NCBI RefSeq assembly: GCF_900143565.1
Contig: NZ_FREX01000001.1
Location: 387,068 to 451,067 of the forward strand
Reading direction: 5' to 3'
Length of the DNA stretch: 64,000 bases
DNA from: Pseudovibrio sp. Alg231-02
GTDB lineage: Bacteria; Pseudomonadota; Alphaproteobacteria; Rhizobiales; Stappiaceae
In this document: positions 44,863-64,000 of the stretch, in pieces
Layout: the number at the start of each line of letters is the position of its first letter
Numbering within the stretch: the stretch's first letter is position 1
The notes under the pieces: generated by a model
Told to the model about the DNA's origin: nothing
The model's database searches: none
The model's input: the letters and a program-made list of their open reading frames with translations, nothing else
Position numbers and translations under genes: made by a program

Positions 44863-45268
44863 AAAACTTATCCCCCTCCCCCAAAAGCTGCCTTACTCTG
44901 TGTCTCGTGCCCACGCATTCGGGCAGGAATGGACCGTCCATTTCGCGGCGTGGGTGGGGTTGGGCTGCTGGTACGAGGTAACGTATCGTGTCAGGAGGTC
45001 CGGTGAAGCGCCATACCCTATTGAGACCACAGTGGTATTAGGGAGTTTGGGGTCGTTCCGGAGGGCGTCCGGTGGTGGCAGGAAACTGCCAATGACAGGG
45101 AAACCTGTCACTGGTACAGAGATGTGCCGGTGACACGGGAACGTGTCATTCACGTCTGTCCGAGAGGGAGCCCGCGTGTTCATGATAAAAGGCCCGGGCG
45201 AGGCGAACAGCCAATGCCGAAGAAACATTATTTACAAGTAGCGCAGGCAAAGCCTGTTCGCCTTGCTC
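44863..45268 (+). ncRNA. Candidate structured RNA element, copy A
   Basis: About 406 nt without a credible protein but packed with inverted repeats. Four adjacent hairpins occur between 45077 and 45148: GGCAG-GAAA-CTGCC; TGACAGG-GAAA-CCTGTCA; CTGGTAC/GTGCCGG with two G-T pairs; TGACACG-GGAA-CGTGTCA. Three of them carry GNRA loops. A long-range 13-bp stem joins 45198-45210 to 45254-45266. The boundaries are set by homology to a second copy at 62305-62753 (minus), which starts with the same AAAACTTATCCCCCT. Whether it is transcribed, and its class, are unknown; a DNA-level mobile repeat is the alternative. Confidence 0.5.
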
Positions 45269-45299
45269 CACCCGTATAAACGGGATCCTCAAACACAAA

Positions 45300-45323
45300 C
45301 ACCGCCGGGATTGCCCAGCGGTG
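45300..45323. terminator. Hairpin between element A and creA
   Basis: CACCGC pairs with GCGGTG across a 12-nt loop. On the minus strand it is followed by GTTTGTGTTTG, so it can serve as the creA terminator. It also lies 31 nt past the end of element A. Confidence 0.5.
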
Positions 45324-45364
45324 CTCAAAGTGCTTGAGGCGCAGATGTCAAATCTACGCGTATT

Positions 45365-62125: not shown

Positions 62126-62304
62126 CAGCTCACGCTCTCCCAGCTCAATATCTATATGTATGGGACTGATGCTACTTTAAGCCGTGCGGGGCAATCCATC
62201 TGGTAATTGGAACTAGTCACTGATTTCTTGGCAGATAAACAAGCACTTAAAGCACCGCATGGCCTTCCATGCAGTGGTGGAACAGAATTCCCGAAAGTCG
62301 GGAT
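62126..62304. other. trpB upstream region
   Basis: Contains the trpB promoter region. Two small hairpins occur: GCATGG-CCTT-CCATGC near 62260, and CCCGA/TCGGG at 62291-62303, the latter directly abutting element B. Confidence 0.4.
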
Positions 62305-62753
62305 GAGCAAGGCGGCAGGCAATACCTGCGCTGTTTGTTAAGTTAGTTTCTTCGGCATTGGCTACACGCCTTGCCCGGGCTTTCTTGGGATGAACAACGT
62401 CGCCTCTTTTGCCTATAAGGTACGATAGTCAGTTTCCTGAAAAGACAGTGGCTTATCCAGTCAGGTTTCCCTGCTCAGACAGTTCCTCCGTCTTTGACAG
62501 ACACATCTGCAAAAGTGGATTTCCCACCGGTACATCTGCATCCGTCACCGCGTGATACCCTATATTCCTGGGTCCTTCCCCTCAAACCATGCGGTCACGT
62601 TTGAAGTTCGGTTCACCGGACCACTGAAAGGTGCGTTACGTCTTCCAACAGCCCAACCCAGCCTACGACACACTGACGGTCGCTCCGCCAGCAGCCCGTT
62701 ACGTAGGCATGCGCTTAGTATGGGCATGGTTTTGAACCAGGGGGATAAGTTTT
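62305..62753 (-). ncRNA. Candidate structured RNA element, copy B
   Basis: About 449 nt, no credible protein, homologous to 44863-45268. Shared blocks in the same order are: AAAACTTATCCCCCT at one end; GGGTTGGGCTG...GTAACG...GGTCCGGTGAA; AGCCAATGCCGAAGAAAC; GCGCAGG...CGCCTTGCTC at the other end. Hairpins with GAAA loops (read on minus) are CAGG-GAAA-CCTG at 62462-62473 and TCAG-GAAA-CTGA at 62429-62440. The closing stem GCAAGGCG/CGCCTTGC (62367-62374 with 62307-62314) encloses GCAGG-5 nt-CCTGC. It is placed just past the terminator of the binding-protein gene. Confidence 0.5.
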
Positions 62754-62772
62754 TGACACACCCGCATACAAA

Positions 62773-62801
62773 AAAAGCCCCGGCACATGGCCGGGGCTTT
62801 T
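62773..62801 (-). terminator. Terminator of the ABC binding-protein gene
   Basis: A perfect GCCCCGGC/GCCGGGGC stem with a 5-nt loop and flanking A4/T4. On the minus strand it ends in a run of seven T, 23 bp past the stop. Confidence 0.92.
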
Positions 62802-62824
62802 CGTATTCCAGAGAGAACTCTGAA

Positions 62825-64000
62825 TTACTTGAGGTCAACGCCGTAGAAGATGTGACCACCGAATGGATCGATCTTGTAGTTTTCAACCTTCACAGAAACT
62901 GGCTCAGAAACAACAGAGTGAGCGATGGTTGCCCATGGAGCTTCACGCTTGAAGACCACCTGTGCCTGCTCATAGAGCTTGGTACGCTCAGCAACGTCTG
63001 CAGTTACTTTTGCTTTCTGGATCAGGTCTTCAAACTCAGCGTTACACCACTGAGCGCGGTTGGAACCACCAACGCCGTCACAGCCGAGAAGAACTGCGAG
63101 GAAGTTGTCCGGGTCACCATTGTCACCAGTCCAGCCTAGAAGAACAGCACCGTCACGGTCCAGCTCTTTAGAGCGCTTCAGGTATTCACCCCACTCGTAG
63201 GAAACGATCTCAACGTCAACACCAACCTTCGCGAAGTCGCCCTGAATAACTTCAGCCATACGACGTGCGTTCGGGTTGTATGGACGCTGAACAGGCATCG
63301 CCCAGATCTTCATCTTAAGATCTTTAACGCCTTCTGCTTCCAGAGCAGCTTTTGCAGCAACCGGATCATATTTATCATCCTGAAGGTCTGCATTGTAAGA
63401 CCAGATGGTCGGTGGAATTGGGTTGGAAGCAACTTTACCAGCACCCTGGAACACTGCACCCAAAATAGCCTGCTTGTTGACAGCCATGTTCAGCGCTTTA
63501 CGCACCTTTGGATTGTCGTAAGGAGCCTGCTGAGTGTTGTATGCCAGGTAACCAACGTTCAGGCCTTCCTGCTGCATGAGGTTGATCGATGGATCATCCT
63601 TCATTGCTGCAATGTCAGCTGGGTTTGGATAAGGCATTACGTGACATTCGCCAGCTTTCAGCTTCTGATAGCGCACGGATGCATCAGGAGTGATCGCGAA
63701 TACCAGATTGTCGATTGGTGCTTTGCCAGCCCAGTAATCCGGGTTTGCTTTATAGCGGATCAACGCATCTTTCTGATAACCAACCAGCTGGAATGGGCCG
63801 GTGCCAACAGGGTTCTGATCGAATGCATCCTGATTGTCCATCATCTTCTCTGCGTATTCAGCAGAGTGAATGGAAGCAAAATCCATCGCAAGGTTTGCGA
63901 TCATTGGAGCTTCTGGACGGGTCAGAACGAACTTCACAGTGTAGTCGTCTACCTTCACGATCTCTTTGATGAGATCAGGCATGGACATTGCGTTGAAGTA
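62825..64000 (-). CDS. ABC transporter substrate-binding protein, DppA-like (partial)
   Basis: The C-terminal ~390 residues of a family-5 solute-binding protein (peptide/nickel type); the frame is open at the right edge, so the start and signal peptide lie outside. Visible family segments are YFNAMSMPDLI, VDDYTVKFVLTRPEAPMIANLA, NPVGTGPFQLVGYQKD, ANPDYWAGKAPIDNLVFAITPD, VGYLAYNTQQAPYDNPKVRKALNMAVNK, and LGWTGDNGDPDNFL with two Cys downstream. They match periplasmic dipeptide-binding protein DppA. Permease genes are not in the window. A strong terminator follows, so this is the last gene of its transcript. Confidence 0.93.
   Translation of the reverse strand, partial: YFNAMSMPDLIKEIVKVDDYTVKFVLTRPEAPMIANLAMDFASIHSAEYAEKMMDNQDAFDQNPVGTGPFQLVGYQKDALIRYKANPDYWAGKAPIDNLVFAITPDASVRYQKLKAGECHVMPYPNPADIAAMKDDPSINLMQQEGLNVGYLAYNTQQAPYDNPKVRKALNMAVNKQAILGAVFQGAGKVASNPIPPTIWSYNADLQDDKYDPVAAKAALEAEGVKDLKMKIWAMPVQRPYNPNARRMAEVIQGDFAKVGVDVEIVSYEWGEYLKRSKELDRDGAVLLGWTGDNGDPDNFLAVLLGCDGVGGSNRAQWCNAEFEDLIQKAKVTADVAERTKLYEQAQVVFKREAPWATIAHSVVSEPVSVKVENYKIDPFGGHIFYGVDLK

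Follow-up and report, generated by a model that had tools for sequence, protein, structure and literature searches.

A multicopy structured RNA family of Pseudovibrio and related bacteria with a DnaA-box-like upstream motif that recurs at gafY-like genes and GTA clusters

The window analysed here, a stretch of 64,000 nucleotides from Pseudovibrio sp. Alg231-02 (contig NZ_FREX01000001.1, positions 387,068 to 451,067), contains two related non-coding stretches at 44863–45268 on the forward strand (copy 1) and 62305–62753 on the reverse strand (copy 2). Both were found where the first-pass annotation had placed them, sharing the blocks that it had described in the order it had given, and both belong to a multicopy structured RNA family. 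Copy 1 opens with the DnaA-box-like motif AAAACTTATCCCCCT (44863–44877, +), a putative promoter element and proposed GafY box at about –40, whose core recurs in 90 of 91 family copies (see below). It is followed by CTTACT (44892–44897, +), which from its sequence reads as a –10-like hexamer and is the counterpart of CATACT or TATACT in other copies. The 5′ RNA domain (44907–45008, +) comprises helices P1, P2 and P3 with the loops ACCGT and GTAACG and matched the 5′-domain model R2 with 85.9 bits (E = 2.6e-15). It leads into a group-specific middle, delimited by alignment, with tandem GNRA-type hairpins (45009–45191, +; fold z –5.05 for body plus tail), and then into the 3′ RNA domain (45192–45268, +), a long hairpin with conserved GCCGAAGAAAC...GCGCAGGC that matched the 3′-domain model R3 with 86.3 bits (E = 2.4e-13). 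Two short closing hairpins, CCCGTATAAACGGG and CACCGCCGGG...CCCAGCGGTG (45271–45337, +; inverted repeat I5), carry the tail motif of the family and likely mark the transcript end.

Copy 2 has the same parts on the reverse strand, namely AAAACTTATCCCCCT (62739–62753), the –10-like hexamer CATACT, again a sequence reading (62717–62722), the 5′ domain (62611–62710; R2, 87.1 bits, E = 1.5e-15), the group-specific middle (62381–62610; fold z –3.81 for body plus tail), the 3′ domain (62305–62380; R3, 79.2 bits, E = 4.3e-12) and the closing hairpins CCCGACTTTCGGG and CACTGCATGG...CCATGCGGTG (62240–62302; inverted repeat I2). The sense-strand matches of the family models in the window were exactly these two copies; owing to the palindromic nature of its stem, R3 also matched weakly at two antisense sites. 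The previously assigned extent of 406–449 nt stops short of the full unit, which extends about 65–70 nt beyond CGCCTTGCTC and, with two further hairpins, reaches about 45337 and 62240. The middles of the two copies look diverged because the copies are members of two different sequence groups.

The elements had been described as a pair, a view that did not hold: BLAST of one copy against the 5.96-Mb genome of the strain revealed 24 distinct full copies, counted as distinct places in the genome, in three sequence groups of 15, 6 and 3 copies. A degenerate 3′-domain pattern, searched in one genome per species across 84,980 species, returned 72 stretches, all titled Pseudovibrio. Five of these, in which the 5′ domain was cut or not found, were dropped; the other 67 and the 24 own copies made up a survey set of 91, whose bodies fell into five groups at 30% distance (52, 20, 12, 6 and 1 copies), three of them represented in the own genome. 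With the 3′-domain model, the family was detected in 14 of 16 Pseudovibrio genomes and, at E up to 0.1, in 32 of the 87 genomes of the bacterial family, covering four of seven genera; two of the 32 are weak (G059 and G090, E about 0.07). Match numbers varied widely between genomes (up to 32 or 36 per genome) and are not copy numbers, since model R1 also matches the antisense strand. Outside Pseudovibrio there were one to four matches per genome, antisense ones possibly included. An order-wide search of 397 genomes under strict filters matched eight genomes, six of them in the home family. G195, a genome of another family (34.8 bits), was rejected, as no 3′ domain was detected at E up to 1, though a GTA was present. 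G254, from a second bacterial family, was kept as tentative; it holds diverged RNA in two places, one of them cut by a contig end, with 5′ domains at 34.6 and 32.6 bits and one 3′ domain at 22.7 bits. Searches of phages, plasmids and viral contigs did not find the RNA.

Throughout the family the promoter motif is followed, after a variable spacer, by the –10-like hexamer; the 5′ domain (about 100 nt), the variable middle (about 135–240 nt) and the 3′ domain (75–80 nt) come next, and two short closing hairpins end the unit. The 5′ domain consists of an 8-bp stem (P1), a hairpin with a loop that is mostly ACCGN or AGCGA and is closed by GG-CC (P2), and a hairpin with the loop GUAACG (P3), while the 3′ domain forms a single long interrupted hairpin around GCCGAAGAMWC and GCGCAGGC. 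With a loose pattern allowing up to two substitutions, the closing hairpin motif was found after the 3′ domain in all 91 copies. In the 5′ domain, 27 diverse sequences supported 31 pairs with 92.4% of cells paired, and 24 of the 31 pairs had changed on both sides; the covariation score of 0.519 compared with 0.254 in shuffles (0/500) and at most 0.199 in slid registers. These 27 sequences were given for the model, L219 and L225 having been removed as aligned one column off; L212, L215, L218, L223, L224 and 13 own copies were left out. Covariation in the 3′ domain was weaker than in the 5′ domain (47 sequences; 0.245 versus 0.165, 0/500), and an alternative pairing of AGGC with GCCU fits there nearly as well as the chosen one. 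For the three copies that were folded, fold z values lay between –3.8 and –5.1. The family is thus a structured RNA whose base pairs have been kept by compensatory change, and its structure is under selection.

No conserved reading frame was found in the six frames, each of which left the body free of stops in at most two of the 91 copies, so that the earlier statement that no protein is encoded held and the family does not consist of fragments of a protein gene. Searched with Rfam 15 at curated scores, the whole window gave three tRNAs only, and when both copies and eight related loci were searched permissively, nothing came near a gathering score; the Rfam scan that the first-pass annotation had proposed thus returned no credible match. 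The best hits inside the RNA, both discarded, were ncS011 within copy 1 (45104–45232; 16.2 bits against a gathering score of 48) and snoTBR5 within copy 2 (12.9 bits against 44). GlmY and BASRCI408, matched near copy 1, lay outside the RNA body and far below their gathering scores, and the hits at copy 2 were mostly terminator-like (62718–62850) and likewise outside the body. By these searches the RNA stands outside every Rfam 15 family, GOLLD, ROOL, HEARO and OLE included, and is a new class of large structured bacterial RNAs. The first-pass annotation had left the choice between an unrecognised structured RNA and a repeat family, with the absence of further homologues and of covarying pairs counting against both; the many homologues, the strong covariation, the negative Rfam result and the lack of a reading frame support a structured RNA.

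The 15-mer AAAACTTATCCCCCT had been taken as one end of the shared element. It is indeed identical in both window copies, but it has the character of promoter DNA upstream of the RNA, from which a poorly conserved spacer separates it. Its core preceded the RNA body in 90 of 91 copies (at most two mismatches), the remaining copy being more degenerate, and the distance from motif to body was 39 nt in 29, 40 nt in 53 and 41 nt in 8 of the 91. Sixteen loci were available outside Pseudovibrio, of which L217 and L226 were dropped for a missing 5′ part. TTATCCMC stood at 37–38 nt in 11 of the 14 left, and the remaining three deviated from it at one or two positions; in eight of the 14, TATACT followed without a mismatch. 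The motif often reads TTATCCACG outside Pseudovibrio; the consensus of the DnaA box is TTATCCACA. In a comparison of ten own copies, chosen from the 15 that make up the largest group, identity reached 93% in the box and 92% in the body, with 51% in the spacer, 63% in the –10 region and 25–34% in the further-upstream flank. Judged by its sequence and placement, the 15-mer is a DnaA-box-like promoter element, fixed 37–41 nt upstream of the RNA body. The two copies of G254 (L294 and L300) have about 100 nt of upstream sequence in common, which contains no DnaA-like box; perhaps they use another type of promoter.

In the own genome, the strict motif AMWCTTATYCCCC, which replaced an earlier, too strict pattern with four matches, gave 25 exact matches, while its reversed control gave none. 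RNA copies account for 21 of the matches, and another precedes a GafY-like gene. The remaining ones lie before a RepA-like gene, within a RepB-like gene or in a repetitive stretch; we take the two genes to encode a RepA/ParA-like protein of plasmid replication and a RepB-like protein. The match upstream of the presumed RepA/ParA-like gene belongs to L167:2-1159 (–).

The GafY-like gene preceded by a strict match encodes a 147-aa protein with a DnaA helix-turn-helix domain (PF08299, Bac_DnaA_C). A MucR-type gene lies before it and a gene for a DUF6456 protein (PF20057) after it, and about 11 kb away is a cluster encoding terminase, portal, capsid and GTA_TIM proteins. GafZ is, we assume, a DUF6456 protein, and the two adjacent genes have the make-up of gafY-gafZ. 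In Caulobacter, GafY was formerly called HdaB and GafYZ activate the GTA (PMC9632790), GafY acting on its own operon and contacting RpoD (PMC9632790; PMC11150451). GTAs in Pseudovibrio are reported in PMC12424307 and PMC3806328. At 30 fetched loci, drawn from the 59 genomes with the protein, the 260 nt preceding the matched stretch of the GafY-like gene contained the motif in 26 cases, against one on the other strand and 0.23 expected from shuffles; the exact motif was absent from the other four upstream regions, and the motif-bearing loci include genomes in which no RNA was detected. Two further TTATYCCCC boxes are situated between the mucR-type and gafY-like genes of the own genome (G000:C8:709557-709578, L268).

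At the GTA cluster, the motif was located on the opposite strand and 12.0–13.2 kb upstream of GTA_TIM, both in the own genome and in 10 of the 16 other regions fetched, of which five come from Pseudovibrio and five from other genera (G076, G061, G017, G102 and G072). Four of the other six had no motif there (G006, G022, G020 and G019), G069 had one at 10.0 kb and G003 is cut by a contig end. At the own site the motif is followed by TTGACA and TAGGGT, and a palindrome, ACAGCG-CAC-CGCTGT, overlaps and follows TTGACA; it resembles the Caulobacter GafZ element between –35 and –10 as described in PMC11150451. No RNA copies were found in the own GTA cluster. The own genome contains three GTA_TIM matches (G000:C8:685636, C3:9888 and C24:3733) and hence at least two GTA-like clusters; of the three matches, only the first is near gafYZ.

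GafY-like protein and GTA_TIM were each present in 59 of the 87 genomes of the family, and these were the same 59. All 32 RNA-bearing genomes possess both, and the 28 genomes without them lack the RNA (Fisher p = 1.2e-7, phylogeny ignored). For the largest other genus (45 genomes), the count was 16 with RNA and GTA, none with RNA only, one with GTA only and 28 with neither (p = 2.6e-11, again ignoring phylogeny); presence and absence in this genus may reflect few independent losses. The 28 genomes missing both markers all come from one genus. Elsewhere in the order, in a second bacterial family, the RNA was found in one of five genomes, G254, which is also the sole one of the five with a GTA marker and which we count, tentatively and on its sequence matches, as an independent case of co-occurrence. 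The RNA was not detected in 27 of the 59 GTA genomes, including two of Pseudovibrio (G001 and G013), so it is either not needed for every GTA or too diverged there to be detected. The role proposed for the motif and the link to GTAs go beyond the first-pass annotation.

We consider it probable that each element is a non-coding RNA gene with its own promoter, made together with the GTA under GafY and acting in trans, the family being a multicopy RNA of the GafY/GTA regulon. Its product would be a structured, non-coding RNA of about 400–450 nt. The TTATCCMC box would replace a –35 element and be bound by GafY, which would recruit the main sigma factor to the TATACT-type –10; transcripts would end at the conserved closing hairpin. 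The RNAs would be made together with the GTA in GTA-producing cells, with many molecules per programme, and, acting in trans and in abundance, might provide that programme with a structural RNA or an RNP component, as is suspected for GOLLD and ROOL. The motif at the gafY-like gene and the GTA cluster matches the pattern published for GafY, which acts at its own, GTA and distant promoters (PMC9632790); the accessible parts of this account and of PMC11150451 mention no non-coding RNA among its targets. Here the box is placed at about –40, whereas the Caulobacter GafY element lies at –123 to –113 and carries ACTATG, with no obvious match to TTATCCMC (PMC11150451). By their own account, the Caulobacter authors could not predict a motif for GafYZ (PMC9632790).

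Several observations speak against this reading. The RNA is undetected in 27 of the 59 GTA genomes; the motif is absent from its usual place in six of the 16 GTA regions, one of them cut short, from the RNA promoter of the distant G254 and, as an exact copy, from four of the 30 gafY upstream regions; where it occurs at the GTA cluster, it stands on the opposite strand at a greater distance from the promoter; the Caulobacter ACTATG element does not obviously match it; and it is also similar to the DnaA box. This last similarity opens the way to a structured RNA under DnaA, with a role in replication or the cell cycle and no functional link to the GTA, gafY simply having DnaA-type boxes. Such control would fit the closeness of TTATCCACG to the DnaA consensus and the exact match upstream of the presumed RepA/ParA-like gene. 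We nevertheless regard it as unlikely, because DnaA is presumably present in all genomes, yet the RNA was not found in the 28 without GTA and GafY, and in the second bacterial family it occurs only together with a GTA.

The dispersal of 24 copies between unrelated upstream flanks (25–34% identity in the ten compared), with the transcription unit as the common part, and the widely differing match numbers among genomes could also reflect a selfish SINE-like or MITE-like element that uses the GTA activator as a promoter signal, spreads by copying or GTA-borne recombination and has no host function. However, 22 of the 24 own copies share collinear flanking sequence, 300 nt or longer and on at least one side, with an RNA-bearing locus in another Pseudovibrio. 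The match lies downstream in 19 and upstream in 15 of them, and in 12 a single partner locus matches both flanks; such sharing between species is evidence against recent mobility. Neither window copy has the terminal inverted repeats that might be expected of a known IS or MITE. The compensatory changes, and a box that stays fixed from genus to genus, indicate selection over a long time, and the number of matches outside Pseudovibrio is low. On these sequence comparisons the mobile-element alternative is weakened, and we think it quite improbable. A 31-member upstream group from a first flank comparison was discarded as at least partly due to genomic repeats beside some copies, and a stricter comparison replaced it; repeats of the GTCATCCCGG...CCGGGATGACA type lie beside several RNA copies, upstream of the own L013 and L014 and of L135 and L161. 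A 5′ leader or antitermination element that acts in cis on the downstream gene would be in keeping with the role of GafZ as an antiterminator in Caulobacter (PMC11150451), but it is very improbable: by mechanical ORF calls, the next downstream gene of the 91 copies is on the same strand in 43, opposite in 46 and uncalled in 2, which argues that the RNA is not a leader, and the closing hairpin follows the 3′ domain in every copy, if by a loose pattern. The upstream gene is co-oriented in 66, opposed in 21 and uncalled in 4 of the 91 copies by the same calls; the RNA tends to sit behind genes.

The closest analogues of the RNA, in setting and not in sequence, are GOLLD and ROOL. These RNAs, which accompany phages, assemble to form RNA cages (PMC12286853). 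Like them, the present RNA is large, heavily structured, non-coding and tied to phage or phage-like genes; at about 400–450 nt it is smaller than one ROOL (about 660 nt) and many GOLLDs (>800 nt), and it has no Rfam match. Unlike them, it occurs as dispersed single-gene copies with both ends conserved and a variable middle. The packaging RNA (pRNA) of phi29 serves the DNA-packaging motor of that phage. It differs from the present RNA, with which it was compared through Rfam only, in size and copy number. Among the matches listed from the literature on GTAs, GafA/GafY and Pseudovibrio, including the available parts of PMC4287350, PMC9426580, PMC11089165 and PMC10688885, we found no report of this RNA or of a GTA-linked RNA gene.

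A more far-reaching version of our proposal, which we put forward tentatively and consider possible but doubtful, is that the family represents the first RNA component of a GTA programme: an ornate RNA under GafY, encoded about two dozen times over in certain species, that would have a structural or packaging role in the particles or form a cage-like RNA in the producer cell as it lyses. TTATCCMC would then be the missing GafY site, and it provides a concrete candidate for GafY binding. An ornate RNA alongside phage-derived machinery would add a setting to the phages of GOLLD and ROOL and bears on what such RNAs do. GTAs have been studied as protein particles; an RNA family that keeps company with GTAs and carries the motif of the activator gene offers an RNA for GTA biology to test.
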